NCBI RefSeq assembly: GCF_015351595.1
Contig: NZ_JADKPT010000003.1
Location: forward strand, 62,001-126,000
Direction: 5' to 3'
DNA length: 64,000 nt
From: Flavobacterium sp. LC2016-12
Lineage (GTDB): Bacteria > Bacteroidota > Bacteroidia > Flavobacteriales > Flavobacteriaceae
In this document: positions 33,785-61,271 of the stretch, piece after piece
How the letters are laid out: each line of letters opens with the position of its first letter
Numbering within the stretch: the first letter of the stretch is position 1
The notes under the pieces: model-generated
What the model saw: only the letters and a program-made list of their open reading frames with translations
Told to the model about the DNA's origin: nothing
Database searches by the model: none
Made by a program: the position numbers and the translations under genes

Positions 33785-33829
33785 TTTAAGATACAATAAG
33801 CTAATGTTATTTATTATTGATATTGCTAT

Positions 33830-33899
33830 TTTACATTGCCATTGTTATTGCCGTTGTCATTGTAATTGTCATTGTTATTGTAATTGTCATTGTTATTGC
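33830..33899. repeat. Hexanucleotide tandem repeat overlapping the symporter stop codon
   Basis: About eleven 6-bp units of the form ATTGTT, ATTGTC, ATTGTA or ATTGCC follow one another. Read on the minus strand they are CAATAA, CAATGA, CAATTA and so on. The final Gln codon and TAA stop of the symporter are the first unit, so the repeat starts inside the gene. Unit-length slippage would keep in-frame stops and leave the protein unchanged. Confidence 0.75.
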
Positions 33900-35218
33900 T
33901 TTTTAAATACAGTTTCCTGCAGTTCTTCTAAAGATTTTCCTTTTGTCTCCGGCATTATAAAAATTACAAAAAGTAATTGAAACACCATCATTATAGCAAA
34001 AACCAAAAACACAACGCCGGCACCAATTGTAGAAAACAGAAACGGAATCATTGATGGAATAATAGCAGCCAACACCCAATGTGTGGAAGAGCCGAAAGCC
34101 TGACCACTGGCTCTTAAATGATTCGGGAAAATTTCTGAAATAAAAACCCAGATCACGGCACCCTGCCCTATTGCATGTGAAGCTATAAACAAGAATAAAA
34201 AAATAGGAACCTGCATTCCTTCCCATTTTAGAAAAAAAGCTGCTGATACAAGTCCTAATGAAATAATGTAGCCAATTGAACCAATATACATAAGGACTTT
34301 TCTTCCCAGGACATCAATTAGAAACACACCAAAAAGCGTAAATACCAGATTGGTTATTCCAATTCCTACACTGCTCATTAAGGCAGCACTTTCGCCTAAT
34401 CCTGCTTCGGCAAAAATTCTTGGCGCATAATATAAAAAGGCATTGATTCCTGAAAACTGATTGAATAATGCAATTAAAAAAGCGAGCATTAAAGGAAATC
34501 TATACTTTTTTAAAAATATGGTTTCTCCTTTTTTATCTTCATTTTCACCTGCTCCTAAATGCATTTCCTGCATTAGATCCTCAATTTTTGCCTGTGGATC
34601 TATTTTTTCTAAAACCGTTTTAGCTTCTGCTATCCTTGCTTTTGATAATAGCCATCTTGGACTTTCCGGAATTGTAAAGACGATAATGGTGTAAAAAAAG
34701 GCCGGAAAAGCCATTATACCAATCATCCATCTCCAGGCGTTTTCACCTGCATCTCTCAACAAATAATTCGATAAAAAGGCTATCAAAATTCCTAAGACAA
34801 TATTAAACTGATACAGGGAAACCAATCTTCCACGGTCTTTTGCGGGAGCAATTTCAGAGACATAAGCCGGCGCAGCTATAGTGGATGCACCAATTCCGAG
34901 TCCGCCGAGAAAACGAAAAAAGGCAAACGTCAAGGGACCTTCAGCGAAAGCGGAACCAATAGCAGATCCTAAAAACAAAACACCAATCCAAATAAGCGTT
35001 TTTTTCCTCCCTAAGGCATTCGTTGGAATTCCGCCAAAAATGGCTCCTACAACCGTCCCCCATAAGGCCATCGCCATTACGACTGATCCATGAAAAACAT
35101 CGGATGTATGCCATATTTCCTGTAATTTTTTATCGGCACCGGAAATTACAACCGTGTCAAATCCAAATAAAAACCCGGCTAAAGCAGCAGTGACAGACCA
35201 TAATAATATTTTATTCAT
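33893..35218 (-). CDS. Sugar porter family MFS transporter (sugar:H+ symporter)
   Basis: The 441-residue protein has about 12 membrane segments and the sugar-porter signatures GFLFGFDTVVISGA (TM1), ALGRKKTLIWIGVLF (loop 2-3), RFLGGLGIGASTIAAPAYVSEIAPAKDRGR (about 101-133), PESPRWLL (end of TM6) and ETKGKSLEEL at the C-terminus. It belongs with XylE/GalP/GLUT-type symporters and would bring free hexose (here probably mannose) through the inner membrane. It is the last gene of the locus, 57 bp after GH78. The stop codon lies in a hexamer repeat. Confidence 0.94.
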   Translation of the reverse strand: MNKILLWSVTAALAGFLFGFDTVVISGADKKLQEIWHTSDVFHGSVVMAMALWGTVVGAIFGGIPTNALGRKKTLIWIGVLFLGSAIGSAFAEGPLTFAFFRFLGGLGIGASTIAAPAYVSEIAPAKDRGRLVSLYQFNIVLGILIAFLSNYLLRDAGENAWRWMIGIMAFPAFFYTIIVFTIPESPRWLLSKARIAEAKTVLEKIDPQAKIEDLMQEMHLGAGENEDKKGETIFLKKYRFPLMLAFLIALFNQFSGINAFLYYAPRIFAEAGLGESAALMSSVGIGITNLVFTLFGVFLIDVLGRKVLMYIGSIGYIISLGLVSAAFFLKWEGMQVPIFLFLFIASHAIGQGAVIWVFISEIFPNHLRASGQAFGSSTHWVLAAIIPSMIPFLFSTIGAGVVFLVFAIMMVFQLLFVIFIMPETKGKSLEELQETVFKKQ

Positions 35219-35275
35219 AATACGTTTTTTAAAAGTTAAGTAATAGAACGATTTGGCTAAGCAGAACCTAAGAAA

Positions 35276-37963
35276 TTATTCTGTGGCAATTTTGAAGGAA
35301 TACGTACCTGATTTAAGTTGAATAACTTTATTTAATCCTTCTTCGCTAGTGCCGTTTATAGCATTGAAATTATAACTAACAGTACTATTCTTTTCTAAAT
35401 ACAGCGTTGCGGTAGCATTTGGCGGAACAGTTACTTTGTAAATTATTTTTTTCTTTTTTCTTTTCCAGTTGGATACAATCTTTCCATAAGGCGATGTATG
35501 CTCTGATTCAAAATAATCAAGTCCTTTTACAAAATTTGGTTTTAAAATAATATGTTTAAAGCCCGGTACATTTTCGTCAGGAAAAATCCCTCCTATTCCT
35601 TTATACATCCATGCGCCTATTTCTCCAAACATAATATGATTCATCGAAGCGTCATTTTTCTCCACATTTAGTGGCCAATTTTCAAATAAGGTAGTAGCTC
35701 CATTTTTTATCCAATAACCCCAGGACGGAAAATCTTCTTGTGAAGCCATTTTATAAGCGGCATCTGCATAGCCGTTTTCGCTTAATGCATTCAGTATCGC
35801 TTTAGTTCCGAGTAAACCAACGTCAAGATGAAAATTAGTTTCCTGAACTTTTTTATATAAATTATCGGCTACTTTTTGCCTGAATTCGTCGGGAACCAAT
35901 CCCCAATAAAGCGGACCGGATAATTCTGTCTGAGTGCCGCTGCAGTACAAATAAGTTGATTTATTCAAAAACTGCTCGTTGAACATATTTTTGATTTTGT
36001 CTGCCAATTTAAAATAGTGATCTGCATCGCTTGTTTTTCCTAACAGTTTTGCTGTTTTGGCCAAAATCATCACATCTGTATAATAATACATGGTAGAAGT
36101 AAGCGGTTTAGAACTTGTGCTTTTGACAGGAACCCAATCTCCTAATCCCCAGTCGGTGATTCCGGTTGGATACCGTTTATCAATCAAATCTACATATTGC
36201 TTTATATTCGGATACATTTTTGATAAAAGGCTGTCATCTCCATAAAACTCATATATTTTCCATGGAATAATAGCAATCGAACTGGTCCAATCCGGACCTG
36301 TCGCAAATTCATAACCAAATGCTCCCGGATTCGGAATAATATTTGAAATTCCACCATCACTTTGCTGCTCGTCCTGATGATCTGCAAGCCATTTTTCGTA
36401 AATGGTAATTCCGTCAAAATTATACAATCCAGTTTCAACATTCGTATGGGCGTCTCCTGTCCATCCGTTTTTTTCGCGTTGCGGGCAATCGGTTGGATAA
36501 CCAAATAAATTGGCGAGGTAACTGCTGTTTGTAGCTTCCCATATTTTATTAAAAACGGGATTAGAAGTTTTAATTTTCCCCACAGCCGGAACGTCACTGT
36601 GCATTTCTAATGCCAATAGATTATCCTCATCCAATTTAAAAGGCTTGCTTGATGTTACTTCTACAAACTGAAATCCTTTATAATTAAACTTTGGAGAAAA
36701 ACTCTCTTTCGCATTACCTTTTGCAATAAAAATATCCGTTTGAAAAGGATCTGAATTGTCGGTAGGTCGATAATGTAAATCGATATTGGAAAGGTCGACC
36801 ATGCCGTTTTTATACAAACGTTCAGCGTGTTTTATTCTGAAAACAGTTCCGGGAAGCGCCTTTTTTATTAAAATTTCAACCGTTCCCGCAATATTTCGTG
36901 GGAATGTATAAACACTTAAAGTATCGTTTATTCTGTTGATTTTAACGGGTTTTAACTTCGCAACTACCCGAATAGGATGCAATTGTTGTGACACTAGTTT
37001 GGAGGAAGGAGATGTGACAAGTATCGCTTTATTCCAATTGTGATCGTCAAAATTAGGTTTGTTCCAGTCCTTTATTTCTTTTCGGGCATCATAATGCTCG
37101 CCCGTATAAATGCTATTGAAAATTACAGGACTATCTGCTGTTTTCCAGGTTTCATCTGTTACTATCGTTTCAGTAGTGTTATCCGAATAGGTAATTCTGA
37201 TATTGACCAGACAACCCGGACGGTTTCGCCAATTTGTTTTATCAAAATTCCAAACCGCGGTCGATTGATGATTGTACCAACCGTTTCCTAATAACAATCC
37301 AAAAGCGTTTTTCCCTTGTTGCAAATAAGCTGTAATGTCTAGAGAAGCATACAAATTTCGACGATCATATCTTGTAAACATCGGATCCAGCATTCGGTTT
37401 CCAACTTTTTTTCCATTGATATAAAACTCATATAATCCACCTGCCGTGACATACACACGAGCCTTTTTAATCGTTTTTGCTGTTGTAATTTCCTTTCTAA
37501 AGTACGGTGCCGGCTTATAATTCTTATCATGAGAATCTGATATCCAGTTTCCTTTCCAGTCACTAGCTTGCAACATGGCGGTTTCAAAACGATTTATTTT
37601 TGAAACTTCCATCTTGTTTTTATTGCTCCAGACTTTTACTCTCCAGAAATAAGTTGTAAAAGATTGAAGAACTGCTCCATTATACGAAATTAACATAGCT
37701 TCTGAAGCTACTTTTCCAGAAGTCCAAACCAATGCCTTTTCTTTAATAAGAGCGATCGAATCCGTTGCTATCTCTATTTGATAGGCCGTTTGCACTACGT
37801 CATCTTTATTGCTTTTTAATTGCCATGAAAATCTGGGTTGCGGCACATCAATTCCCAATGGATTTACAAGATGTTCGCAATTGAGATTTACAGGCGTTTG
37901 AGAAAAGCCCACTAAATTTATTAATAGAAAAAGGAAAAATATAGTGCGTTTGTGTTGTATCAT
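35276..37963 (-). CDS. GH78 alpha-L-rhamnosidase
   Basis: The 895-residue protein has a Sec signal (about 1-21, ending LVGFSQ) and the usual order of GH78 domains. These are a Fn3-like N-domain (VNLNCEHLVNPLGIDVPQPRFSWQLKS), beta-sandwich modules with YVTAGGLYEFYINGKKVG, and a catalytic alpha/alpha-barrel with FPTDCPQREKNGWTGDAH and GITDWGLGDWVPV carrying the acidic residues. A C-terminal sandwich ends the protein. It hydrolyses terminal alpha-L-rhamnose by inversion. In a locus otherwise aimed at mannan it implies a rhamnose-decorated glycan. It lies 42 bp after GH97. Confidence 0.93.
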   Translation of the reverse strand: MIQHKRTIFFLFLLINLVGFSQTPVNLNCEHLVNPLGIDVPQPRFSWQLKSNKDDVVQTAYQIEIATDSIALIKEKALVWTSGKVASEAMLISYNGAVLQSFTTYFWRVKVWSNKNKMEVSKINRFETAMLQASDWKGNWISDSHDKNYKPAPYFRKEITTAKTIKKARVYVTAGGLYEFYINGKKVGNRMLDPMFTRYDRRNLYASLDITAYLQQGKNAFGLLLGNGWYNHQSTAVWNFDKTNWRNRPGCLVNIRITYSDNTTETIVTDETWKTADSPVIFNSIYTGEHYDARKEIKDWNKPNFDDHNWNKAILVTSPSSKLVSQQLHPIRVVAKLKPVKINRINDTLSVYTFPRNIAGTVEILIKKALPGTVFRIKHAERLYKNGMVDLSNIDLHYRPTDNSDPFQTDIFIAKGNAKESFSPKFNYKGFQFVEVTSSKPFKLDEDNLLALEMHSDVPAVGKIKTSNPVFNKIWEATNSSYLANLFGYPTDCPQREKNGWTGDAHTNVETGLYNFDGITIYEKWLADHQDEQQSDGGISNIIPNPGAFGYEFATGPDWTSSIAIIPWKIYEFYGDDSLLSKMYPNIKQYVDLIDKRYPTGITDWGLGDWVPVKSTSSKPLTSTMYYYTDVMILAKTAKLLGKTSDADHYFKLADKIKNMFNEQFLNKSTYLYCSGTQTELSGPLYWGLVPDEFRQKVADNLYKKVQETNFHLDVGLLGTKAILNALSENGYADAAYKMASQEDFPSWGYWIKNGATTLFENWPLNVEKNDASMNHIMFGEIGAWMYKGIGGIFPDENVPGFKHIILKPNFVKGLDYFESEHTSPYGKIVSNWKRKKKKIIYKVTVPPNATATLYLEKNSTVSYNFNAINGTSEEGLNKVIQLKSGTYSFKIATE

Positions 37964-38005
37964 TATTAAATTTTATTCTTTTGAATTGTAATGCAATATT
38001 TCCAT

Positions 38006-39976
38006 TTAAATTTCTTCTAAAACAGCGGCCCAACCGCCATTTTTCACCATTTTAACTTCAATACTTTCATTACTTTTAATAGTAAAGTTCTTTTTTCTGT
38101 AATCCATGGCCTGATATCCTGCATTGATACCGTCTTCAAATGAAGTTACTTTATACGATTTTCCAGCTTTTAAGAAGTTTAGATTTAATTTGAAATTTCG
38201 TTCTTTTTCAGCGTTGTTGGTTATTCCGCCAATAAACCATTTTGAACCTTTTCTTTTGGCTACAATGGCATATTGACCGGCTTGCGCTTCCAGAGCAACC
38301 GTTTCATCCCAGGTTGTTGGAACTGAGGTTATAAATTCGGTACATTCTTTTTCGCGGTAATAATTGGTTGGATTATCAGCAAGCATTTGCAAACCACTTT
38401 CAAAAACTACAAACAAAGCAAGCTGATACGCACGTGTTCCTATACTCGCAGAATTAGGTCGTTCAGACCTGTAAACCTCAGGCTGCATGCTGATCATAGC
38501 TCCGGGTGTATAATCCATCGGGCCAACGGCGTTGCGCATAAAAGGAAGATATACACTGTTATCTGGTTTACAGCCTCCCATTTGCTCCATTCCTCTTACG
38601 CCTTCATACGAAATCAGGTTTGGGTATTTATATTCTAAACCAGCCGGTTTAAACGCACCATGAAAATCAACCAATATTTGATATTTTGCCGCTTCTTTAG
38701 CTACCTTTTCATAATAATTAACCATCACCTGATCACTGCGATCCATGAAATCAATTTTTACTCCGGCTACTCCCCATTCTTTAAAAGTTTTAAAAAGTTC
38801 CATGTTTTTTTCTACCGTCAACCATGTTAACCATAATACGATTCCAACCTTTTTTTCTTTCCCATATCGAATCAATTCCTGAACATCAACATTTGGATTA
38901 GGCGAATAAGGATCTTCTGTACTTTTAGCCCAGCCTTCATCCATAATGATGTATTCAATACCGAATTTTGAAGCAAAGTCAATAAAATATTTATAGGTAT
39001 TTAAGTTATAACCAGACACAAAATTCACATCCGGACCATATGGTGTTGCACCGTTCCACCATTCCCAGCTGGCTTGTCCCGGTTTTATCCAGGAAGGATC
39101 CTGAACCTGACTTTTTGGAGCCAATTTTAAAGTCATTGTGTTTTCAATAAGTTGTTTGTCATTTTTAGTAATGACAAAATAACGCCACGGAAAATGTCGC
39201 GTTCCGGTCGTTTTTGCAATATAATCTGCTTCTTTTAAAATTTTAAGACTTCTGTCGCCGTCTGGTCCAAAATCTAAAGGTGCTTTTGGAAATGTTGATA
39301 CAACGCCGCTTCCGGTTCCTTTTAAAAACATTCCAGGATAGTCAGACAAATCCGATTCGCTGATTAATATTTTGTATTGTTTTTTTGAATCTGCCAAAAC
39401 AGGAAGTGTTGACATTTTATCAGAAGATTTCCAATCACTTGCATTAATATGTGAATATTCTTCTTCATAAGAAGTTTTAAAACTTCCTGCCTGTTGCAAA
39501 TGAAGCAGATAATTTGTTGGGAAATTAACCGTAAAATCTTCATTTAGTATTTCAATTTCTCCTCTTTTGGCCGTTATAAATCGATACGCCACACCTTCAT
39601 CAAAAGCACGAAATTCAACTGAATATCCTCCTTTAAAATTCAGCAGCAAATAATTATAAACATTTGCTACGGTTGAAAATTTAAGCGGAATGGCCGGTTT
39701 TATAACTTCATTTACTTTTCCGGTTTTGCTTCCTGCTAACTTCGGATTTAGTCCTAAAGTTTCATTTTTAAGTACTAAGCCCAAATGATTCTTTGTGGCT
39801 AATTCTTCATTTCCTGCTGCAATCGAATAATAGATTTTATCTCTTAAAGTGATGGCTATTTTTAATTCACCATTTGGTGATGCAACTTCAAAATTTGTTT
39901 TCTGCGAATAGGTATTAGAAAGCCCAAAAAGCAAAAATAAACAAGCAAATAATTTTAAATTTTTCATCAAAAACAT
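38006..39976 (-). CDS. GH97 alpha-glycosidase, retaining (alpha-galactosidase-like) type
   Basis: The 656-residue protein has a signal peptide (about 5-24, LFACLFLLFGLSNTYSQ; a second Met at residue 5 may be the real start) and a GH97 N-terminal sandwich. The TIM barrel contains YIIMDEGWAKS, VGIVLWLTW, GVAGVKIDFMDRSDQ and DFHGAFKPAGLEYKYPNLISYEGVRGMEQ. The Asp in KIDFMD and Gly in DFHGAF, where the inverting SusB type has Glu, indicate the retaining branch known for alpha-galactosidases. It probably removes alpha-galactose or another alpha-linked decoration. A perfect hairpin lies in the 54 bp before its start. Confidence 0.93.
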   Translation of the reverse strand: MFLMKNLKLFACLFLLFGLSNTYSQKTNFEVASPNGELKIAITLRDKIYYSIAAGNEELATKNHLGLVLKNETLGLNPKLAGSKTGKVNEVIKPAIPLKFSTVANVYNYLLLNFKGGYSVEFRAFDEGVAYRFITAKRGEIEILNEDFTVNFPTNYLLHLQQAGSFKTSYEEEYSHINASDWKSSDKMSTLPVLADSKKQYKILISESDLSDYPGMFLKGTGSGVVSTFPKAPLDFGPDGDRSLKILKEADYIAKTTGTRHFPWRYFVITKNDKQLIENTMTLKLAPKSQVQDPSWIKPGQASWEWWNGATPYGPDVNFVSGYNLNTYKYFIDFASKFGIEYIIMDEGWAKSTEDPYSPNPNVDVQELIRYGKEKKVGIVLWLTWLTVEKNMELFKTFKEWGVAGVKIDFMDRSDQVMVNYYEKVAKEAAKYQILVDFHGAFKPAGLEYKYPNLISYEGVRGMEQMGGCKPDNSVYLPFMRNAVGPMDYTPGAMISMQPEVYRSERPNSASIGTRAYQLALFVVFESGLQMLADNPTNYYREKECTEFITSVPTTWDETVALEAQAGQYAIVAKRKGSKWFIGGITNNAEKERNFKLNLNFLKAGKSYKVTSFEDGINAGYQAMDYRKKNFTIKSNESIEVKMVKNGGWAAVLEEI

Positions 39977-39985
39977 TTTTTATAT

Positions 39986-40018
39986 AAATAACGTCCCACG
40001 AAAAATGGGACGTTATTT
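39986..40018 (-). terminator. Perfect hairpin between GH92 and GH97 genes (attenuator or RNA-processing element)
   Basis: A 13-bp perfect stem AAATAACGTCCCA / TGGGACGTTATTT with a 7-nt loop fills the gap between the GH92 stop and the GH97 start. The downstream tail on the minus strand is A/T-rich (ATATAAAAAATG) without a clean U-run. It may only partly terminate, or protect the upstream message end. Confidence 0.6.
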
Positions 40019-40030
40019 TATTACTATCTA

Positions 40031-42211
40031 TTACTTCGTTATGACTTGTATTTCGCCACCATTTTTAAACAAATCGTGTGAAATGAAATAGCCATCAATT
40101 TTAGCGTTGTTTACTTTAATGGCTTCTAAATCTCTTTTTCCGTTAGGATTTTTTATTGTTACTTTTTTTCCTGCAGGAGTTGTCCACGCTACTTCCTTAA
40201 AAATAGGAACGGTAACAATATATTCAGGATCGGCAGGCGATAACGGGTAAAGTCCTAATGCACCAAACACATACCACGAGGACATTTCACCCGCATCATC
40301 CATACCACTCATAGCCAGTTTTTCTGGCCCAATTCCGTACATTGTATCTAAAATTTCGTCTATTCTTTTTTGCGATTTTTCAGGTTTGTTTACAAAATAA
40401 TAAGAAAACGGCGCTTCATGATCCGGCTGGTTTCCGTGGCAATATTGACCAATAAATCCAGAGATATTCCACGCAATATAACTTGGATTCCAAGGTTTTG
40501 TAAAGAACTCGTCTAATTTTGCTTCAAAAGGTTTTGCCCCTCCATAAAGCTGCACTAAGCCTGGCATATCATGAGGAACAAAAAAGGATAACTGCCATGC
40601 ATTTGCTTCTCTGTACATATATTCATAATATGGAAACTCAGGATTAAAAGGCGTTATCCATGAACCGTCTGCTAATCTTCCTCTCATAAAAGTGGTTGAT
40701 TTATCAAAAACGTTTGCATAATTTTTAGAACGTTTAACCAAGTCATTATAATGTTCTGTATCATTCAACTCTTTGGCCAATAGTGAAAGTGCGTGATCGT
40801 CGTAAGCATATTCTAAGGTTTTAGTAACAGCGGCATTTGCTACTGTTTCTACTTTTGGATCTTTAATATCTTGTTCCGGAACATAACCTTTAGCAATATA
40901 TTCCGCAATATGAGGCCTTGTTCCGCCTTCTTTGTAAGCGTTGTTCAATAATAACTGATACGCTTTTTTAACATCATAATTCCTGATTCCTCGCATATAC
41001 GAACCTGCAATAAAAGAGGCTGCGTGATCTCCATGAAAGAATGTCGGAATAAAACCTTTTATTTCACCTTCGTTAATAATCGAACTGATTACATCAGCCG
41101 TAACATCCGGAGAAAAAATGCTTAGCAGAACCAGTTTATTTCTGTAATCATCCCATAAGGAAGGTAATGTGTAATAGTGGTAATTTTCTTTACGTACTTT
41201 ACCGGCATCATCTATAAACTGGCCATTTACATCGCTTCGTAAAGCAGGCCATAAAAATGATCTGTACAACATGCTGTAAAACATAACATTTTGTTGTTCT
41301 GTTCCGCCTTTGACTTGAATTTTAGAAAGCATGTTTTCCCACTTGGTACTTCCCTCATCAAAAACTTTTGCCAGTGTTTTATCTCCTACCTCAGTTTTTA
41401 GATTTTCAGCTGCATTTTCTGTACTTACAAATGACAGTGCGATTTTAACCGTAACCGGTTTAGTATCGCCGTCTTTAATATTTACTAAAGTATAACCGCC
41501 GCTTTTTGCGATATCTTTGGTATCTAATTTTTCAATTGGACTGCTCAAAGTCGCATAAAAATATATTTTTTCGCCTCCGGTTCTTTGAAAACCACTTACC
41601 GCATTGGCGCCTTCCATCTTAATTTGCCAGTCGTCTACACGATTGTTTGCTTTTCCGAGATCAAAAAGCACTTTTCTGCCTTTGTTGTTTTTAAAAGTAT
41701 ATTCGTGTACACCACAACGTAGCGTTGAAGTCAGTTTTACCTGAACATCATACTCTTTTAAATATACTTCATAATAAGCCGGACTTGCTTTTTCCTGATC
41801 ATGGCTAAAGGATGATTTATAAGGAAAAGAAGCGCCATCCGAAACTGGTAAAAGCGGAATATGACACAAATTCCAATGTCCTTTGTTGGTATGCGTAAAA
41901 CCTAAAATTTCTGTATCTTCATATTCGTATCCCGCACCGGATCTGTATTTTGTCATTGGACTTAGCTGTACCATTGCGTTTGGAACAGAAGATCCCGGAA
42001 ATACCAAACCTGCCCAGACACGCATATTTGCTGGTGGTGTATAACCAATTATTTTAGTGTCCAGTAAAGGCGCAGTTCCAATAAACGGATTTACCAAAGC
42101 TGTGTATTTTCCTTTTGAAAGACCTCCTCCAGATTTCTGAGCTGCCGCATTAAAGCCAAAAATTGACATAGACAGTGCCGCAAGAACTATATTCTTGTTA
42201 AATTTTATCAT
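40031..42211 (-). CDS. GH92 alpha-mannosidase, divergent catalytic segment
   Basis: The 726-residue protein has a signal peptide (about 1-24) and the GH92 fold (YTALVNPFIGTAPLLDTKIIGYTPPANMRVWAGLVFPGSSVPNAMVQLSP). The helical core has EANAWQLSFFVPHDMPGL. Near the C-terminus the usual DEDxGQxSxWY segment reads GMDDAGEMSSWYVFGALGLYP, with Glu in place of the common Gln. This points to a distinct GH92 subgroup, perhaps with another linkage or acceptor preference. It lies between GH125 and GH97 with gaps of 28 and 54 bp. Specificity is not readable from sequence. Confidence 0.93.
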   Translation of the reverse strand: MIKFNKNIVLAALSMSIFGFNAAAQKSGGGLSKGKYTALVNPFIGTAPLLDTKIIGYTPPANMRVWAGLVFPGSSVPNAMVQLSPMTKYRSGAGYEYEDTEILGFTHTNKGHWNLCHIPLLPVSDGASFPYKSSFSHDQEKASPAYYEVYLKEYDVQVKLTSTLRCGVHEYTFKNNKGRKVLFDLGKANNRVDDWQIKMEGANAVSGFQRTGGEKIYFYATLSSPIEKLDTKDIAKSGGYTLVNIKDGDTKPVTVKIALSFVSTENAAENLKTEVGDKTLAKVFDEGSTKWENMLSKIQVKGGTEQQNVMFYSMLYRSFLWPALRSDVNGQFIDDAGKVRKENYHYYTLPSLWDDYRNKLVLLSIFSPDVTADVISSIINEGEIKGFIPTFFHGDHAASFIAGSYMRGIRNYDVKKAYQLLLNNAYKEGGTRPHIAEYIAKGYVPEQDIKDPKVETVANAAVTKTLEYAYDDHALSLLAKELNDTEHYNDLVKRSKNYANVFDKSTTFMRGRLADGSWITPFNPEFPYYEYMYREANAWQLSFFVPHDMPGLVQLYGGAKPFEAKLDEFFTKPWNPSYIAWNISGFIGQYCHGNQPDHEAPFSYYFVNKPEKSQKRIDEILDTMYGIGPEKLAMSGMDDAGEMSSWYVFGALGLYPLSPADPEYIVTVPIFKEVAWTTPAGKKVTIKNPNGKRDLEAIKVNNAKIDGYFISHDLFKNGGEIQVITK

Positions 42212-42239
42212 TTTATAAAAAATTAAAATCGGTTAAAAA

Positions 42240-43670: not shown

Positions 43671-43699
43671 TTTGTGTATTTTAAAAGATTAGCTTTTCG

Positions 43700-46003: not shown

Positions 46004-46010
46004 AATTCAA

Positions 46011-47816: not shown

Positions 47817-47898
47817 TATGAAATTATGTTTTTGAATTTTTAGAAGTATCCTAAAAATGTGTTTTTTCTTAGCAAATAATAAGGCAAAATAATATAAA

Positions 47899-47926
47899 AC
47901 CTGAAGGATGTTTATTTCCTTCAGGT
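47899..47926 (-). terminator. Terminator-like hairpin between GH76 and GH2 (transcript attenuation)
   Basis: A perfect 9-bp stem ACCTGAAGG / CCTTCAGGT with a 10-nt loop is followed on the minus strand by TTTTATATTATTTT. It lies 36 bp after the GH76 stop. It should lower expression of the periplasmic enzymes relative to the SusC/D/E/GH76 surface proteins. Confidence 0.78.
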
Positions 47927-47961
47927 GTTACAAAAATTACTAAACAAACAAACTTACTTAC

Positions 47962-49143
47962 TTAATCAAAATATCCATCTTTATCAAGCTTAGCTGCAGC
48001 TTCGATAAGCATTACGCCGCTTAATTGAGTGGTAAGATCTACATTGGCACCAGCTGCAGGCGCAACTTTCCAATTATTTCCTGAAAGCATAGCTGGTCTT
48101 AAAATTCCTTTTTTATAGAATGTTTCAGCATTGAACTTCATGAAATCAGCAAATTTTTCTTTATCGGTAGAGTTGATAGTTTCTTGTTGTGTCAACTCAG
48201 TAAAATATCTTACCAGGATACCTTTAAACAAACCACCATCTCCCTGGCCTTCATCTTTTAAAATACCTTCTGAAACTAATTTTGGGCTTGTTAAAACGGA
48301 TCTTCCAGATTTAACTGCATCATCAAGATACGTCTGATCATTTGTTGCTTTATACAATCTTAATCCAGCACCAATCCAGGTTCCCATATTGTAGGTAAAT
48401 ACCCAGTCTTTATTAGTGGTAATTACACCATTAGTTTCTGAAATATTATCCCAAACCAATCCGGAAACAGGATCAACAAGGTTCTTCTTCTGCCAGGCAT
48501 AAATTTTCTTGGCCCATTCTAAATCTTCAGGATCTTTGTCAATTTCATACAGTCTCATGGCAAGAATAGCAGCAGGACCATTAGAAACTGCATTTTTTTG
48601 CATTGGAGTATCTTGTTTCCATGTGATACCACCTCCAAAAACATCGCTCCAGCTTAATTTTATTCGTTCCCATAAAAAATCAGCAACTTCTTTATATTCT
48701 GCGTCTTTTGTTGCATCATAGGCACGAAGACTAGAATTGGCAAGCCAAAGCATATCATCGTTAAAAACGTTATTATACGTGTTTCCGTTTTTTACTTTAA
48801 TTCCTTGTAGCAAAGCTTTCATTTTAGGAATGTAACTTTCATTACCCGTTCTTAAATATCCATCAACAAGAACATCCAATACGTGAGCATTAGGCCAATA
48901 ATGGAAAGTGCTATTACCGGTATTATTCTGGATATAAGTTCCGTTAGAACCTAAATAAGTATTAGTAGTAGCAAGCTGTAAAGAATCTGCTGTTTTCGCC
49001 CATGTATATTCGAATTCAGGAGCAACGACCCCATTAGGATCACGTAACGGAATTGGATCATCATCACAAGATGCAGTCAATAACCCCAATCCGGCAATAG
49101 ACAAAAACAGGATACTATAACTTTTTGAAAAAAATCTTTTCAT
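47962..49143 (-). CDS. GH76 endo-alpha-1,6-mannanase, surface lipoprotein
   Basis: The 393-residue protein has a lipoprotein signal with lipobox TASC (Cys26) followed by three Asp, matching the acidic surface-export signal of Flavobacteria. The GH76 barrel has catalytic Asp129-Asp130 in YNNVFNDDMLWLANSS, then FGGGITWKQDTPMQKNAVSNGPAAILAMRLYE and WVFTYNMGTWIGAGLRLY. It directly follows the SusE-like gene, so it would cut alpha-1,6-mannan chains at the cell surface before SusC/D import. This is the best single clue to the locus substrate. Confidence 0.94.
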   Translation of the reverse strand: MKRFFSKSYSILFLSIAGLGLLTASCDDDPIPLRDPNGVVAPEFEYTWAKTADSLQLATTNTYLGSNGTYIQNNTGNSTFHYWPNAHVLDVLVDGYLRTGNESYIPKMKALLQGIKVKNGNTYNNVFNDDMLWLANSSLRAYDATKDAEYKEVADFLWERIKLSWSDVFGGGITWKQDTPMQKNAVSNGPAAILAMRLYEIDKDPEDLEWAKKIYAWQKKNLVDPVSGLVWDNISETNGVITTNKDWVFTYNMGTWIGAGLRLYKATNDQTYLDDAVKSGRSVLTSPKLVSEGILKDEGQGDGGLFKGILVRYFTELTQQETINSTDKEKFADFMKFNAETFYKKGILRPAMLSGNNWKVAPAAGANVDLTTQLSGVMLIEAAAKLDKDGYFD

Positions 49144-49200
49144 ACTATTATTATTTAAAAAAGTCTCTCAAAGACAATCCCTGAGAGACGTCTTGATTAT

Positions 49201-50325
49201 TTATAAAATTGTAAAACTGTGTGTGTATGCTGTTGCAGCTGCGCTAAAATTAATTTCTGCATTTACATCACTATTATCAATTGCAGTAGCAAATTTGAAA
49301 CAGTTGTTCCAGAAATCATTAGTAACCGGTACCATATACCAGTATGATGCCGCAGTACTGGCATCTGGTCTGTTATTGTCTCCATTAACACTGCCATACC
49401 ATTCTTCTGATGTTGTATCACCGTTTACAACTGTAAACTTAAATTTATAACGCTCATCTTTACCCCATGATTCTACTTTGAAATCAATGTGCTTGTTAGC
49501 CGCTTTCCAAATACCTCCACCAGAATAAGTATATTCAAATAAATAAGAACTAAGTGGCGGGAACCACAATTCAATTTTTTTAATTTCGGTCATAGTTGTT
49601 GACCCATCGCTGAAATCAACTTTTATTTTATACACTTTACTTTCTCCGGCATACGTTGTAGCTCCATCTTGTTTTAATTTAGCTTCGCTGATATAAAATA
49701 CTTCAGGAGTTCCATTTTTTCTTGTTATAAATTTGTAGCTACCTGCCTTTAGTTTTGTGTAAATTTCAAATGAAGTAGCGCCAGTTTTTTTGAAAGCCTG
49801 TGCATCTGCAACAGTTTCTCCATTTTCAGAAGCTGTACCTGTAATAAACAACTGGTCCGGAGTTGGGAAACCGCCTGGTCTCTGAACTTCGATAATACCT
49901 GATACTGAAGATTTTTGAACATTTAATCCTTTGGTAGAATAAACCGTCCATTTTAATTTTCCAATACTTTCAGATTGAATTCCAGCCATTTCAGCAATTT
50001 TGTTCAGCTCAGTAAATGAAATGTTCAATTTATTTTGGAATCCTTTTCCATCTGAAGGGATTGTGTAAACCGGTTTAGAGAAATCGCCACTTTCACGATC
50101 AAAAACTACATCGTAAAGTACCGCTCCGTTATCTTCTGCCTTTGCAGCTTCCCACTCAAAAATAGCAGAACTTTGCGCTCCAAGATCAAAAAATTTATTA
50201 TCAGCTGGTGAATAAAGAGCATTAACTGCACTTACATTCGTGTGGCTCATTGTTTCGTCGTTGTCGCAGCTTACAAGAAATATTGCGCAAATAACTATTA
50301 ATAGTTTTGAATATATATTTTTCAT
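49201..50325 (-). CDS. SusE/SusF-like surface glycan-binding lipoprotein
   Basis: The 374-residue protein has a lipobox ending FLVSC (Cys20) with acidic residues just after it. A SusE-type N-terminal immunoglobulin-like domain (NALYSPADNKFFDLGAQSSAIFEWEAAKAEDNGAVLYDVVFD) is followed by one or two carbohydrate-binding beta-sandwiches (QLFITGTASENGETVADAQAFKKTG, FPPLSSYLFEYTYSGGGIWKAANKHIDFK). It lies between SusD and GH76 and should hold glycan on the cell surface. The sequence of SusE-like proteins varies greatly, so the ligand cannot be inferred directly. Confidence 0.9.
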   Translation of the reverse strand: MKNIYSKLLIVICAIFLVSCDNDETMSHTNVSAVNALYSPADNKFFDLGAQSSAIFEWEAAKAEDNGAVLYDVVFDRESGDFSKPVYTIPSDGKGFQNKLNISFTELNKIAEMAGIQSESIGKLKWTVYSTKGLNVQKSSVSGIIEVQRPGGFPTPDQLFITGTASENGETVADAQAFKKTGATSFEIYTKLKAGSYKFITRKNGTPEVFYISEAKLKQDGATTYAGESKVYKIKVDFSDGSTTMTEIKKIELWFPPLSSYLFEYTYSGGGIWKAANKHIDFKVESWGKDERYKFKFTVVNGDTTSEEWYGSVNGDNNRPDASTAASYWYMVPVTNDFWNNCFKFATAIDNSDVNAEINFSAAATAYTHSFTIL

Positions 50326-50353
50326 GTTATTGTTTTTTTAGATTGATATTATT

Positions 50354-51979
50354 TTACCAGTTTGGATTTTGAGTTAAATTTGAATTAATCAAACGTTCGT
50401 CTCTTGGTATTGGCCATAAGTAGTGTTTATCCGGATCAAAAGTTCTTAAATTAACTCTTAAGTATCCATTATCTACTGAAGAAACACCAAATTGTGCTCC
50501 ATGCGCATAACCATTTAAAACATCTTCAGCTATCTTCCATCTTCTGATATCAAATATTCTAAGACCTTCCATTCCAAATTCTGTACGGCGTTCATTTCTA
50601 ATCACTTCACGAAGTCCTGTTTGTCCTAGTGAAGCATTATAGGATAAAGCTGCACCATCTGTAAATCCTGCTCGCGTTCTTAAAGCCTTAATGGTTTGAT
50701 CCCAAACTGTACTGTTCATTTGGTTCAACTCATTTTTAGCTTCAGCATGCATCAACAAAATATCAGCATAACGGAAAAGCATTAAATTTAAACCAGAATT
50801 TAAAGAGGTTGTATGCTGTAAATCATAGTATTTACGCGTATAATATCCTGTAGCCGTTTTTGATGATCCTTGTGCATATTCATCAGGCGCAGCAGTATTT
50901 GGATCAGAACCCGGTTTAATATAAATAGTTTTAGAGCTTCCATCTGCTTCTTTCCAGTTGTATTGATCATACACTACTGTTCCGGTAAGTCTTGGATCTC
51001 TGTTTGCATAAGGATTATTTTCATCATAACCTGAACCAGCTTCATTAATTCTTTTTCCGTTAGTCATTATGTAACTATCAACTAATTCCTGAGTTGGTGC
51101 TAAGCCATTTAATCTTGCACCGGCAGAAATTGGTGCCATATCAAAAAACTCTCCCCACATTCTATCAATTGGTACATATTGCAAACTCAAGATATCTTCG
51201 CTACTGTATTCGTTTTGTGTTGCAAACAAACCTTCATAAGAACCAAATAATGCATATTGACCATAGGTGTTCGCCATAAACTGTTCTGTCACCTGTGCCA
51301 CTTCTGCCCATCTGCTTTCATACAAAAGGACTCTTGCTTTTAAGGCCACTGCAGCTCCTACAGTAATTCTTCCTCTTTCAGCAGGAACTAACTGCGTATT
51401 TTTAGGAAGCGCTGGAATTGCAGCATCAAGTTCATCTAATATAAACTCAACCACTTCAGCATGTGGCGTTCTGCTAATAGTGGAAGCCTCTTCAAGAGAA
51501 GGATCTTTCTTTACTAACGGAATATCTCCAAACCACGTAGTTAACTGAAAATGTTGAAATGCACGAATAAAACGCGCTTCAGCAGTCATTCTGGCAATTA
51601 CAGCAGGATCTGCATCTGGTACGCGTCCGATATTTTCTATAATTAAATTACAGGTTTTAATTCCTGAATATCGATCGTTCCATTCGCCTTTTATTCTTCC
51701 TAAAGAAGGATCATAAATTCCTGCCGCAATAGATGCCGCTCCTTCGTTATCTCCTCTTCCGTTATAAGCATTATCAGAAAGTGCTTCATTGTAAAAGAAT
51801 CTCGAACTGTTCTGCATTTGTGAATAAGCAGTGTTCAAAAAAGTCTGAGCCTTGTTTACACTTGTCCAATAATTAGAATCTGTAAATCTATCCTCTGGTG
51901 CAAGATCCAGGCTTTCACAACTTACCAGCAATAATAATACAGCCGGTATAAATTTTATGTGTTTAAGTATATTTTTCAT
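50354..51979 (-). CDS. SusD/RagB-family surface glycan-binding lipoprotein
   Basis: The 541-residue protein has lipobox LLLVSC (Cys21). SusD-family segments are LDLAPEDRFTDSNYWTSVNKAQTFLNTAYSQ, ARFIRAFQHFQLTTWFGDIPLV, RADILLMHAEAKNELNQ (RADVLLMYAEA-type motif) and a C-terminal LWPIPRDERLINSNLTQNPNW. It starts 12 bp after SusC and forms the lid of the SusC channel. With the surface GH76 it should bind mannan fragments. Confidence 0.95.
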   Translation of the reverse strand: MKNILKHIKFIPAVLLLLVSCESLDLAPEDRFTDSNYWTSVNKAQTFLNTAYSQMQNSSRFFYNEALSDNAYNGRGDNEGAASIAAGIYDPSLGRIKGEWNDRYSGIKTCNLIIENIGRVPDADPAVIARMTAEARFIRAFQHFQLTTWFGDIPLVKKDPSLEEASTISRTPHAEVVEFILDELDAAIPALPKNTQLVPAERGRITVGAAVALKARVLLYESRWAEVAQVTEQFMANTYGQYALFGSYEGLFATQNEYSSEDILSLQYVPIDRMWGEFFDMAPISAGARLNGLAPTQELVDSYIMTNGKRINEAGSGYDENNPYANRDPRLTGTVVYDQYNWKEADGSSKTIYIKPGSDPNTAAPDEYAQGSSKTATGYYTRKYYDLQHTTSLNSGLNLMLFRYADILLMHAEAKNELNQMNSTVWDQTIKALRTRAGFTDGAALSYNASLGQTGLREVIRNERRTEFGMEGLRIFDIRRWKIAEDVLNGYAHGAQFGVSSVDNGYLRVNLRTFDPDKHYLWPIPRDERLINSNLTQNPNW

Positions 51980-51991
51980 TTTCGTTTTTTT

Positions 51992-54900
51992 TTAAAAGCT
52001 AATATCAAGACCCATTCCGTAATAAGCCTGCGTTGGAAAGGCTCTTCCGCTGTTAGCCCCAGAAGGCGACATACTACTATTGAACTCAGAAAGTTCAGGA
52101 TCAACAAATTTCACTTTAGATAACGTAAGAAGATTTTGCCCTGATATATACATACGGAATCTGCTCATGCCTAATTTTTCTGCAACATCAGCTGGTAATG
52201 AATAACCAAACTGTACGTTTTTAAGCCTGGCGTAAGCACCATCATATAAATACATATCTGAACCTCTTCTAAAGTTATTCGTATTAGACTGGGTACCATT
52301 ATTTGCCAAACGCGGGTAACGTGCATCAGGATTTTGAGGTGTCCAGTAATCAAGCTGATGTGTATACATCGTCATACCATAATTATAGTGAAATGGCTCA
52401 ACCAATTCTCCTCTGATCATCATGGTTCTTTTTCCAACACCCTGTATAAAAATACTCAGATCAAAATTTTTGTAATCTGCAGTGTAGGTCGCTCCAAATG
52501 TATATCGTGGAAAAGGGTTTCCAAAAATAAATTTATCGTTATCGTCAATCTTACCGTCCTTATTGGCATCTACATAGCGGTTATCACCAGGCTGTACAGT
52601 TAAACCTTCAGGAACAGCAGCTCCTTCAATTTCCTGCCAATTTTGAAAGTATCCGTCTCTTTTTAAACCAACATAAGAATTAAATGGCATACCTTCTCTA
52701 AGCAGAACTTGTAACTCTTCTACTCCGGTTAATCTTTCTTCACCACCGCTATATTCTAGTACTTTGTTTTTAGAGTCTCCAACATTTACTGTTAAACTTT
52801 GGGTTAAATCTTTGCCTTTATGTGTATAAGTGGCGCTTATTTCCCATCCTCTATTACCCACTTTACCATCATTAAAATCAGGAAGATCTGTTCCAAATAC
52901 TCCTGGCACTTGTGGTGGAATAAGAATATCTGAAGTTACTTTATCAAAGTAATCAAATGAGAAATTTAAAGCTCCTTTAAAGAAATCAGCTTCAAGACCA
53001 ATATTAAATGTTGCCGCTTTTTCCCATTGGAGATCAGCATTTGCAAAATCATATCCCGTTCCGCTTACGCCAGAATTATTAAATCCGTATCCATTCTGAA
53101 AAGTAAAGTAAGTGGTCTGATATTGAAAATTGTTAACGTTTTGATTTCCTACAATTCCATAAGATGCCTTAAACTTCAGGTTACCCACTTTATCCCTGTA
53201 ATTTTCCATAAAGTTTTCTTTGGTAAGCGCATAACCAACGGTTCCTGATGGAAAGAATCCCCATCTAATTTCTTCTCTGAATTTGGATGAACCATCATAT
53301 CTAAAAGTAAATTCAGCAAAATATTTATCATTGTAATCGTATGTTGCACGGCCTAAAACAGAGTTTAAACTATTCTTACCTGCTCCACTATTCGAATTAT
53401 ATGTGTTATCTCCTATTACCGTTTCACTCGTTGGAGTTCCTAAATCGGGATCAGTAAATTTCTTGTATACACCAACTCCTCTGTCTGAATGATTTTCATT
53501 TGTGACACCAACCATGGCACCAACGTTATGAACTCCTGCAAAAGTTTTATTAAACTCAACCAAAAATTGCGTATTTAAGTCAAGAGCTTTTCTGGTTTCG
53601 TCATTGGTATCACGATCAGCTCCATAAACGCCTTGTGGCAAAAAATTTACTTGTTTTGTTCTGCTGTACATACTTCCGTTCCACAAGCGTCCTCCAAAAA
53701 TACCTTTTAGTTTTAGGAAACTAGTAAGCTTGAATTCAGCATTTAAAGATCCAAAAAGGTCATCATTGTCATATTTTCTAAAACCGCCCTGCTCTAATAT
53801 CCCTAAAGAGTTAAATTGCTGCAGTACATCATTTGTCAGGTAATTGCCATTTTCATCTTTTTGTTTATAATAAAGTGGAACCCTGAAAGCATCTACCATT
53901 AATGTACCGGTACTGGACGAATGATCTGAAATTTTTTGTTTTGCATAGGCAAGACTGGAAGTCAATTTGAATTTACCGTATTCATTGGTAAGATTAATTC
54001 TGAAATTGTAACGCTCCAGACCTTTTTTTGGTCCTACAAAATTACTTTCCTGATCTACATATCCTAATGAAACCAAATAAGTAGAGTTTTCATTACCTCC
54101 TGAAACAGAAAGATTCTGATTTAATTGCAGTGCCGGTCTTACAATTTCTTCAGCAAACCATTCTGTATCTCCATCTGCTTTTAATTTAGCAATTTGTTCT
54201 GCAGTAAAAACTGCGTTTGCCTCACCTGAATTGTATGCAGCTTCATTTCTTAGCATTGCATTTTCATAACCATGTACAGGTTTAGTAAAGAAAAATGGAT
54301 TGTTGTATCCAACCAAACTACTATACTGTACAGTCATCGGTTTTCCTTTACTTCCTTTTTTAGTTGTAATTAAAACAACACCATTATTAGCTCGCGAACC
54401 GTAAATAGCGGCACTACCTGCATCTTTAAGCACGGAAACACTTTCAATATCCGCAGGATTTAAGGTATTAATATCCCCTCCCACAATTCCATCAATTACA
54501 ATCAATGGGCTATTATTTCCCAATGTGCTTATACCCCTAATATTAAGATTTATACCAGCACCCGGTTCAGAGTTGTTTTGCTGAATAATTAAGCTGGGAG
54601 CTTTTCCCTGTAAAGCCTGAGTTGCATTAACACTTGGCCTGCCTTTAAAAGCGTCGCTGCCAACCTGATCAATAGCACTAATTACTTTACGCTTCTTTTG
54701 TGTACCGTAACCTACAACAACTACTTCGTCTAAAGCCGATACATCCAGATCTAAAGAAACATTAATAGTACTTCTATTGTTTACTTTAACCTCTACTGAT
54801 TTATACCCAATCATAGAGAATCTCAAAGTTGCATTGGGATTGGTTACTGCTATAGTATAGTGTCCATCAAAATCAGCACTAACTGCGCTTTTAGGATTAC

Positions 54901-55078
54901 TCACATCGACTACGGTAGCTCCAGGAAGAGATAAGTTATCGGAAACACCGATGATAACTCCAGTGACCTGGATTTTTTGAGTCTGGGCGTACATATGCCC
55001 CGAACAAATGAGAATAATTAGGAAAAAGAAATGCGTATACAGCATTTTTTTCTTTTTGAAATCTGATTGTTTCATCAT
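51992..55078 (-). CDS. SusC/RagA-family TonB-dependent glycan importer
   Basis: The 1028-residue outer-membrane protein has a signal peptide (about 12-32), a carboxypeptidase-D-like domain (about 36-110), a TonB-box-like LDEVVVVGYGTQ (about 113-124), a plug with RGISTLGNNSPLIVIDGIVGGD and VLKDAGSAAIYGSRANNGV, and a beta-barrel ending GLDISF. It lacks the STN domain found in the other SusC (508-4152), so it should not signal to a FecR protein. Regulation is instead likely through the LacI gene downstream of its promoter region. It is the first gene of the ~21-kb mannan locus. Confidence 0.95.
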   Translation of the reverse strand: MMKQSDFKKKKMLYTHFFFLIILICSGHMYAQTQKIQVTGVIIGVSDNLSLPGATVVDVSNPKSAVSADFDGHYTIAVTNPNATLRFSMIGYKSVEVKVNNRSTINVSLDLDVSALDEVVVVGYGTQKKRKVISAIDQVGSDAFKGRPSVNATQALQGKAPSLIIQQNNSEPGAGINLNIRGISTLGNNSPLIVIDGIVGGDINTLNPADIESVSVLKDAGSAAIYGSRANNGVVLITTKKGSKGKPMTVQYSSLVGYNNPFFFTKPVHGYENAMLRNEAAYNSGEANAVFTAEQIAKLKADGDTEWFAEEIVRPALQLNQNLSVSGGNENSTYLVSLGYVDQESNFVGPKKGLERYNFRINLTNEYGKFKLTSSLAYAKQKISDHSSSTGTLMVDAFRVPLYYKQKDENGNYLTNDVLQQFNSLGILEQGGFRKYDNDDLFGSLNAEFKLTSFLKLKGIFGGRLWNGSMYSRTKQVNFLPQGVYGADRDTNDETRKALDLNTQFLVEFNKTFAGVHNVGAMVGVTNENHSDRGVGVYKKFTDPDLGTPTSETVIGDNTYNSNSGAGKNSLNSVLGRATYDYNDKYFAEFTFRYDGSSKFREEIRWGFFPSGTVGYALTKENFMENYRDKVGNLKFKASYGIVGNQNVNNFQYQTTYFTFQNGYGFNNSGVSGTGYDFANADLQWEKAATFNIGLEADFFKGALNFSFDYFDKVTSDILIPPQVPGVFGTDLPDFNDGKVGNRGWEISATYTHKGKDLTQSLTVNVGDSKNKVLEYSGGEERLTGVEELQVLLREGMPFNSYVGLKRDGYFQNWQEIEGAAVPEGLTVQPGDNRYVDANKDGKIDDNDKFIFGNPFPRYTFGATYTADYKNFDLSIFIQGVGKRTMMIRGELVEPFHYNYGMTMYTHQLDYWTPQNPDARYPRLANNGTQSNTNNFRRGSDMYLYDGAYARLKNVQFGYSLPADVAEKLGMSRFRMYISGQNLLTLSKVKFVDPELSEFNSSMSPSGANSGRAFPTQAYYGMGLDISF

Positions 55079-55533: not shown

Positions 55534-55550
55534 ATAAAACGTTTTAGTAT
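55534..55550. promoter_or_regulatory. Second LacI-type operator near lacI 3' end
   Basis: ATAAAACGTTTTAGTAT matches the susC palindrome except for its left end. It lies about 270 bp from that operator, between the lacI stop and the lacI terminator, a spacing compatible with a repression loop. Confidence 0.5.
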
Positions 55551-61254: not shown

Positions 61255-61271
61255 TCAAATTATGTGAAAAA

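Follow-up and report, generated by a model that had tools for sequence, protein, structure and literature searches.

A putative LacI-controlled locus for decorated alpha-mannan, probably fungal galactomannan, in Flavobacterium

Results

A Sus-like locus of 11 genes

We analysed a 64,000-nt window of the Flavobacterium sp. LC2016-12 genome and found in it a single run of 11 genes, separated by small gaps and all on the minus strand (33893–55078). The gene order is SusC–SusD–SusE–GH76–GH2–GH92–GH125–GH92–GH97–GH78–sugar porter. Every family named in an earlier note on this DNA was recovered where the note had placed it, on the minus strand and as a long open frame free of internal stops. The note had overlooked that GH92 occurs twice and that the GH2 groups with furanosidases and not with ordinary beta-galactosidases. 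A SusC-like TonB-dependent outer-membrane transporter (51992–55078; 1028 aa; Pfam Plug 64.6 bits, CarbopepD_reg_2 49.8 bits) lies next to a SusD-like surface glycan-binding lipoprotein (50354–51979; 541 aa; SusD_RagB 182.3 bits), and this adjacency of SusC and SusD homologues marks a Sus-like polysaccharide utilization locus. A SusE-like surface lipoprotein follows (49201–50325; 374 aa; SusE 62.9 bits), and the run ends in a sugar porter of the major facilitator superfamily (33893–35218; Sugar_tr 354.8 bits; TIGR00879 329.9 against a cut-off of 237.8).

The alpha-mannan core

The GH76 endo-alpha-1,6-mannanase (47962–49143; Pfam 141.7 bits) has as its best PDB match the alpha-1,6-mannanase 6shd (442 bits), keeps the catalytic Asp pair (residues 129–130), and by eye has a lipoprotein-like N-terminus (LTASCDDD). 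The first GH92 (43700–46003; Pfam 573.9 bits) is an alpha-mannosidase, probably alpha-1,2: it matches 2wzs/2wvx, labelled putative alpha-1,2-mannosidase, at 1132 bits and retains the His-Glu motif (596–597). Its start is TTG in a mechanical list of open reading frames, and under the same rule orthologues from three relatives begin with TTG, TTG and GTG. The GH125 exo-alpha-1,6-mannosidase (42240–43670; Pfam 585.8 bits; 3p2c, 619 bits) is close to BT3781 of Bacteroides thetaiotaomicron (2p0v, 606 bits), with an N-terminus that looks twin-arginine-like by eye (MERRKFIQN). The second GH92 alpha-mannosidase (40031–42211; Pfam 439.5 bits; 6f8z, 382 bits) lacks the His-Glu motif and probably acts on another linkage. 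A GH76 with its Asp-Asp pair thus stands beside GH92 and GH125 exo-mannosidases, and both the families and their catalytic residues bear out the note's reading of these genes as an alpha-mannan core. GH76, GH92 and GH125 make up the known alpha-mannan enzyme set, as described in the available text of two papers (PMC9213526, PMC6298971).

A GH2 of the furanosidase group

The GH2 (46011–47816; 601 aa; Pfam domains of 64.3 and 58.4 bits) matches 7sf2 best (927 bits), an entry that names no activity. Among PDB entries that state a specific activity, the nearest is the beta-D-galactofuranosidase 9j6n (470 bits), followed by 7xyr (313 bits), which the PDB labels beta-glucuronidase and an accessible part of the literature lists as an uncharacterised GH2_19 (PMC12243196). 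The remaining matches reach at most 86 bits, with LacZ at 51–53 bits. Among characterised enzymes it thus resembles a furanosidase more than LacZ, a glucuronidase or a mannosidase, and on these scores we rejected an ordinary beta-galactosidase or glucuronidase. Galactofuranosidase and arabinofuranosidase activity are both described for GH2 subfamilies 18 and 19, with 9J6M assigned to GH2_18, in the same portion of that source (PMC12243196).

By alignment the GH2 retains D390, E446 and E507. In the Streptomyces enzyme, mutations of D423 and E464 are given as the most damaging, and the enzyme released galactose from Aspergillus galactomannan, according to the available text (PMC4560423). These two residues map to the kept D390 and E446 (counted, with a constant offset of 23). 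We regard the GH2 as a probable exo-beta-D-galactofuranosidase on the strength of these alignments. Alpha-L-arabinofuranosidases also belong to GH2 group III. A second copy of this GH2 in the genome (77%) belongs to a GH43-rich locus, a context that would also fit an arabinose specificity. The loci of F. beibuense (L115) and of genome G520 (L097) have no GH97 and carry an aldose-1-epimerase gene directly after the second GH92, so that GH2 is the sole candidate galactose-releasing enzyme within the scanned gene run; this context would favour galactose. GH76, GH92 or GH125 appeared in only five of 91 GH2 neighbourhoods outside syntenic Flavobacterium loci (several contigs were cut short and possible duplicates kept), and we found no link of this GH2 with mannan enzymes in general.

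GH97 and GH78 are optional modules

The GH97 (38006–39976; Pfam 342.8 bits) is of the retaining alpha-galactosidase type. It matches 3a24, a retaining alpha-galactosidase of Bacteroides, and 5e1q at 471 and 469 bits, compared with ~148 bits for a SusB-type inverting alpha-glucosidase, a candidate we rejected. Against the NCBIfam equivalog for retaining alpha-galactosidases (NF053844) it scores 649.6 bits, below the cut-off of 800. The motifs on which the note had based its retaining-type assignment hold: DFMDRSD (residues 409–415) aligns with DFMDRDD of 3a24, and DFHGAF with DLHGTH. KIDFMDRSD and YEGVRGMEQM together align with the 3a24 positions that we take to be the Asp nucleophile and the Glu acid/base, both kept here. 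The GH78 alpha-L-rhamnosidase (35276–37963; Pfam 359.5 bits; 6i60, 570 bits) has the full set of five rhamnosidase-type Pfam domains. REKNGWTGDA (shifted by one residue) and TTLFENW align with the motifs of 3w5m that presumably hold the catalytic Glu pair.

The same gene order occurs, uncharacterised, in other Flavobacterium genomes. In F. saccharophilum DSM 1811 (GH2 98%) the order also agrees, except that the first GH92 is missing. Among 30 relatives' loci, 11 carried both GH97 and GH78, seven GH97 only and 11 neither, with one unscored; no locus showed GH78 without GH97. The note had placed both enzymes in the mannan operon, and they are indeed there, but these counts reject them as a fixed part of the enzyme set: GH97 and GH78 are optional modules outside its defining set. 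In F. hydrocarbonoxydans a gene of 912 aa lying between GH97 and the porter had been suspected to be another rhamnosidase; it proved to be a hybrid two-component regulator.

A conserved palindrome beside a LacI gene

A palindrome, CTAAAACGTTTTAG, lies 183 bp before the SusC start (55262–55275) and is a candidate LacI operator. A one-mismatch copy stands between the lacI end and SusC (55534–55547), and a second exact copy 176 bp before a GDSL gene (59463–59476). At up to two mismatches the window holds six sites against 0.76 expected, a count reached by none of 100 shuffles. The site upstream of SusC is exact in 20 of 22 relatives and has one mismatch in the other two. The 12 carrier genomes hold 29 exact copies, of which 24 fall no more than 20 kb from the locus; the backwards pattern used as a control occurs three times in all. 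Two of the five stray copies are in one genome (G688); the other three (3-kb loci L203, L205 and L208) gave no tblastn match to C7 or window locus proteins. Exact sites are near a regulator gene, conserved and locus-specific, as in a LacI regulon. Single-mismatch sites hardly exceed the control in this genome (15 versus 11), where one precedes a GH92 elsewhere; a third exact copy precedes another SusC, where a scan of four genes showed no glycosidase. The adjacent LacI-family gene (55576–56601, minus strand; Peripla_BP_3 61.2 bits, LacI 33.2 bits) probably encodes the palindrome's regulator.

Beyond it, also on the minus strand, lie a cupin resembling the C-terminal part of mannose-6-phosphate isomerases (56819–57334; MannoseP_isomer 39.5 bits), a ROK-family sugar kinase, possibly a mannokinase (57371–58309; ROK 58.3 bits), and a GDSL hydrolase, possibly a deacetylase (58600–59286; Lipase_GDSL_2 107.4 bits). 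The ROK protein reaches no NCBIfam cut-off and the cupin falls far below the equivalog cut-offs, which identifies neither as a mannose enzyme. A GDSL homologue (61–63%) sits between GH76 and GH2 in five of the 30 relatives' loci. A satellite cluster on the minus strand (7293–15564: GH92, esterase, GH127-like, aldose epimerase and GH76) has palindrome-like sites nearby at 15656 (two mismatches) and 16144 (one mismatch), and we infer a link to the main locus.

Discussion

We favour, with some reservation, a LacI-controlled utilization locus whose target is a decorated alpha-mannan, most probably galactomannan or peptidogalactomannan of fungal cell walls. The earlier note's mannose-rich glycan with galactose and rhamnose stands in outline, but the best evidence for galactose is the galactofuranosidase-like GH2 and not the GH97; the nearness of GH2 to a beta-D-galactofuranosidase indicates a galactofuranose-bearing fungal mannan more directly.

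The surface lipoprotein GH76 would cut alpha-1,6-mannan, and SusCD(E) would bind and import the fragments. In the periplasm, GH2 is predicted to take off beta-galactofuranose, GH97 terminal alpha-galactopyranose and GH78 terminal alpha-rhamnose, while the presumed alpha-1,2-specific GH92, the second GH92 and the alpha-1,6-specific GH125 would degrade the mannan to mannose. The porter would import this sugar, which may then be phosphorylated by the ROK kinase and isomerised by the cupin. The LacI protein, by binding the palindrome upstream of SusC and of the GDSL–ROK–cupin genes, would hold the operon off until an inducer arrives. GH97 and GH78 would fit the conserved core to particular side chains.

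The enzyme core being the known alpha-mannan set, the target could instead be yeast-type alpha-mannan or an N-glycan outer chain, with GH2, GH97 and GH78 as co-regulated passengers for other glycans. Speaking against the fungal galactomannan reading, single alpha-1,6 links join the alpha-1,2-tetramannosides of Aspergillus fungal-type galactomannan, as the accessible text has it (PMC7712326), so an endo-alpha-1,6-mannanase fits that polymer worse than a yeast-like backbone. GH97 and GH78 are both missing from 11, and GH2 from four, of 29 scorable relatives' loci. However, a search on GH92 that set no condition on GH2 recovered 18 scorable relatives, 14 of which have GH2, and GH97 and GH78 lie inside the gene run, GH78 in no case without GH97; we consider this alternative rather unlikely.

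A specialist for alpha-rhamnose-capped fungal mannan of the Scedosporium/Pseudallescheria peptidorhamnomannan type, with GH78 central, is much less probable. Rhamnomannans with terminal alpha-rhamnose are described there (PMC4196476, available portion), and this GH78 is the genome's only strong one (363 bits in a genome scan; next match 38 bits), but no other enzyme of the set is kept so rarely (11 of 30 relatives' loci). A family search for RhaA found nothing here or in 12 relatives, and this genome has no TIGR02635 match. TIGR02632 matches were confined to the dehydrogenase part and below cut-off, and all 14 controls matched too, making them uninformative. As neither tested rhamnose isomerase family was found in the genome, rhamnose removal may unblock the polymer rather than feed the cell.

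Galactofuranose and rhamnose are found in bacterial polymers too, but a bacterial or algal heteropolysaccharide with mannose, galactose and rhamnose is similarly improbable: above cut-off the locus genes match neither a sulfatase nor a uronic-acid enzyme, and 6shd, nearest to our GH76, is presumably the GH76 of the fungal alpha-mannan consumer Salegentibacter sp. Hel_I_6. On its side is galactofuranose in mycobacterial galactan and LPS (PMC10115798, in part).

The fungal galactomannan reading has partial precedents. Salegentibacter Hel_I_6 is reported to consume fungal alpha-mannan, and its alpha-mannan-inducible locus shares GH76, GH92, GH125 and a GH2 that the authors placed nearest a GH2 arabinofuranosidase; unlike ours, it has six GH92, one GH43 and about 30 genes, according to the accessible text, and the terms GH97, GH78 and galactofuran are absent from the main text (PMC9213526). 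The yeast-mannan loci of B. thetaiotaomicron share GH76/GH92/GH125, surface cutting and periplasmic digestion, but also use GH38 and, by implication, GH99, with GH97 and GH78 unmentioned in the available text (PMC9213526, PMC6298971). The GH2 beta-D-galactofuranosidase of Streptomyces sp. JHA19 (9j6m/9j6n) aligns over nearly the whole protein, but has 786 aa and an AbfB domain, with no mannan locus mentioned in the accessible portion (PMC4560423). Bacteroides loci with GH43_31 and GH182 also remove beta-galactofuranose in Bacteroidota, from mycobacterial galactan (available text), but with other enzyme families on another polymer; GH2 is absent from the main text (PMC10115798). As the note had claimed, we found no characterised locus with exactly this enzyme order, nor a Bacteroidota locus for galactofuranose mannan, in searches of the open-licence PMC literature.

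More tentatively, Bacteroidota could have here a pathway dedicated to fungal mannan that bears galactofuranose, governed by a single LacI repressor and a single 14-bp operator. Side-chain modules (GH97, GH78, GH31, LacZ-type GH2 with GH3, GDSL, aldose epimerase), and the SusCD import pair itself, would be swapped between species around a fixed mannan core, with some modules, such as the rhamnosidase, uncapping the polymer but not nourishing the cell. Mould walls contain galactofuranose mannan, which also serves as a diagnostic marker of aspergillosis (PMC7712326, in part), and the gene set offers a testable enzyme series for dismantling it, with the palindrome as a reporter handle for an inducer search. 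The Flavobacterium locus combines a conserved mannan core with side-chain enzymes that vary between related species, and from such optional modules comparative genomics could predict the mannan decorations that each species handles.

Gene content of the mannan locus

The eleven open frames read on the minus strand from 55,078 to 33,893 (SusC, SusD, SusE, GH76, GH2, GH92a, GH125, GH92b, GH97, GH78, and a sugar porter) form a predicted alpha-mannan utilization locus, a kind already known. The family list in an earlier note on this DNA proved correct; all named families were found, with GH92 present twice. The window covers positions 62,001–126,000 of contig C3 in a genome of 5.01 Mb. Excerpts from the open-licence PMC literature yielded no published Flavobacterium locus of this type; the nearest example found there, in Salegentibacter Hel_I_6, comprises six GH92 genes, GH43, GH125, GH2, and GH76, and its GH2 was likened by its authors to an arabinofuranosidase (excerpts of PMC9213526). 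What is apparently new is a galactofuranosidase reading of GH2 inside a mannan locus, the optional GH97 and GH78 modules, and a locus-specific putative LacI site.

The nearest solved structure to GH76 was the alpha-1,6-mannanase 6shd (442 bits), and the Asp pair that the mutants 6shm and 6y8f have altered is kept at residues 129–130. GH92a matched 2wzs/2wvx, both labeled putative alpha-1,2-mannosidase, at 1132 bits, and GH125 matched 3p2c at 619 bits. A His-Glu pair, reportedly identified as the alpha-1,2 determinant by Zhu and colleagues in 2010, is kept in GH92a and absent from GH92b. In a mechanical list of open frames GH92a starts with TTG, and its orthologs in three relatives start, by the same rule, with TTG, TTG, and GTG. 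N-termini, judged by eye, were lipoprotein-like in GH76, SusD, and SusE, of twin-arginine type in GH125, and of secretion type in the remaining glycosidases, suggesting three lipoproteins, export of GH125 through a twin-arginine signal, and secretion of the others. A CATTGT-type tandem repeat (18-base period, 3.6 copies; 33,822–33,899) overlaps the 3′ end of the porter gene, and a Septu-type anti-phage pair (31,669–33,538; PtuA ATPase, 544 bits; PtuB HNH, 248 bits) lies directly downstream from the locus.

A galactofuranosidase-like GH2

The main correction to the earlier note concerns GH2, which by its PDB sequence matches is galactofuranosidase-like rather than LacZ-type. Its top PDB match, 7sf2 (927 bits), names no activity; beta-D-galactofuranosidase 9j6n/9j6m ranked second (470 and 468 bits) and 7xyr, labeled beta-glucuronidase, third (313 bits), compared with ∼51–53 bits for LacZ-type entries of E. 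coli size. Excerpts of a 2025 subfamily study assign 9J6M to GH2_18 and 7xyr, as uncharacterized, to GH2_19, and report beta-D-galactofuranosidase and alpha-L-arabinofuranosidase activities for GH2_18/19 (PMC12243196). The Streptomyces JHA19 enzyme releases galactose from Aspergillus fumigatus galactomannan, and its most damaging mutations were D423A and E464A (excerpts of PMC4560423). These positions correspond to chain residues 400/441 (offset 23, counted on the printed alignment) and align with D390/E446 of our GH2.

Arabinofuranose is a tenable alternative specificity for GH2. The genome's second GH2 copy (77%) sits in a GH43-rich SusCD locus (L042, contig C1: 654,001–674,000) beside GH43 matches (two clear, one weak) and an aldose epimerase; six further loci (L043–L047, L117) show a comparable gene arrangement. 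Arguing for galactose instead, the syntenic loci of F. beibuense and genome G520 carry GH2 and an aldose-1-epimerase gene, directly after GH92b, without GH97; the F. beibuense epimerase scored 337 bits against galactose-1-epimerase NF008277 (cut-off 240) and 348 against TIGR02636, below its cut-off of 398. Bacteroides galactofuranosidases belonging to other families have been described in work on mycobacterial galactan (excerpts of PMC10115798).

Side activities, sugar fate, and substrate

GH97 matched the retaining alpha-galactosidase 3a24 at 471 bits, against ∼148 bits for SusB, and scored 649.6 against the NCBIfam retaining alpha-galactosidase cut-off of 800. It keeps the Asp altered in 5e1q, presumably the nucleophile. 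GH78 has five rhamnosidase-type Pfam domains (570 bits vs. 6i60). RhaA (PF06134) had no match in this genome or in 12 relatives (seven with GH78 in the locus), nor TIGR02635 in this genome, so rhamnose removal may serve to uncap the polymer. Genes elsewhere in the window (16,291–18,596 and 59,815–63,963) encode a gluconate-dehydrogenase-like subunit, a GMC oxidoreductase, a 3-keto-disaccharide hydrolase, and GFO/IDH oxidoreductases, suggestive of a 3-keto-sugar pathway.

Available excerpts describe Aspergillus galactomannan as an alpha-1,2/1,6-mannan carrying side chains of beta-galactofuranose (PMC7712326; PMC6240093); another account gives an alpha-1,6 main chain with galactose as furanose and pyranose, and reports terminal alpha-rhamnose on the rhamnomannans of Scedosporium/Pseudallescheria (PMC4196476). 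The enzyme set is a better match to galactofuranose- or rhamnose-bearing fungal mannans than to plain yeast mannan; excerpts of the literature searched held no single polymer with galactofuranose, galactopyranose, and rhamnose together.

A palindrome associated with the locus

A perfect 14-bp palindrome, CTAAAACGTTTTAG, a candidate LacI operator, lies 183 bp before SusC (55,262–55,275) and again 176 bp before a GDSL gene (59,463–59,476) that heads the run GDSL-ROK-cupin-lacI. The ROK kinase and mannose-phosphate-isomerase-like cupin both score under every curated NCBIfam cut-off; their position adjoining the regulator gene would suggest mannose use. When up to two mismatches are allowed, the window contains six sites (0.76 expected), a number reached in 0 of 100 shuffles. 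Upstream of SusC the palindrome is exact in 20 of 22 relatives' loci, beginning 78–210 bp before the called start, and has one mismatch in the other two (62–64 bp). Twelve carrier genomes, which we chose among locus-bearing genomes, held 29 exact copies, 24 of which lie no more than 20 kb from the locus (distances computed by hand from coordinates), against three copies of a backwards control pattern; a degenerate form of the palindrome had no match in the 1.47 Mb of non-syntenic loci that were fetched. Sites in relatives' fetched stretches also precede GH125, GH92a, LacZ-type GH2, GDSL, GH31, another SusC, and a GH97 fragment, with no called start within 450 bp of three of the 15 listed.

This genome has just three exact sites. 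The third lies 67 bp before a SusC accompanied by SusD and an F5/8 type C protein (L189, contig C7: 210,001–227,000); the four genes scanned at that place include no glycosidase. Sites with one mismatch carry little weight, since the control count is close (15 vs. 11); one of them precedes a GH92 by 53 bp, and another is close to a second mannan-type cluster at 7293–15,564 (GH92, esterase, GH127-like protein with a 3-keto-disaccharide hydrolase domain, aldose epimerase, GH76).

Variation among relatives

Searching 398 Flavobacterium genomes for GH92b gave 20 matches including this genome. The 19 relatives plus 11 from GH2 searches, which skew the set to GH2 carriers, gave 30 syntenic loci, with duplicate records of one species counted once and absence meaning absence from the fetched stretch. 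GH97 and GH78 occur together in 11 loci, GH97 without GH78 in seven (including Root901, at 65% identity, whose stretch ends within the porter), neither in 11, and GH78 without GH97 in none; F. aquicola, whose stretch is cut at a 53% fragment of GH97, was left unscored. Among the 19 alone, GH2 was present in 14 of 18 scorable loci, GH97 in 10 of 19, and GH78 in seven of 19. A quick GH125+GH92b tree (31 rows) requires at least eight changes for GH97 and five for GH78, counts that cannot separate gain from loss; for the GH97+GH78 group, well-supported branches force just two changes, and five or fewer arose in two of 500 label shuffles.

F. saccharophilum DSM 1811 is a relative whose GH2 is 98% identical in protein. 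Most shared locus genes are 92%–96% identical in DNA and the SusC upstream region 90.5%; the first GH92 is absent there. One lineage seems to have swapped its SusC/SusD import pair, whose DNA identity (81.5% and 83%; 50,500–54,900) is below that of the other genes.

Relatives carry other extras at or beside the locus: GH31 (G170, G700), LacZ-type GH2 (in F. panici, together with GH3, and in F. piscis), a GDSL gene that separates GH76 from GH2 (five loci), and GH76 with aldose epimerase after the porter (F. chungbukense). The unusual side activities claimed earlier are thus present, but not as a fixed set, since GH97 and GH78 come and go among the 30 relatives; with these differing extras, they appear to be exchangeable adaptations of a shared mannan core.
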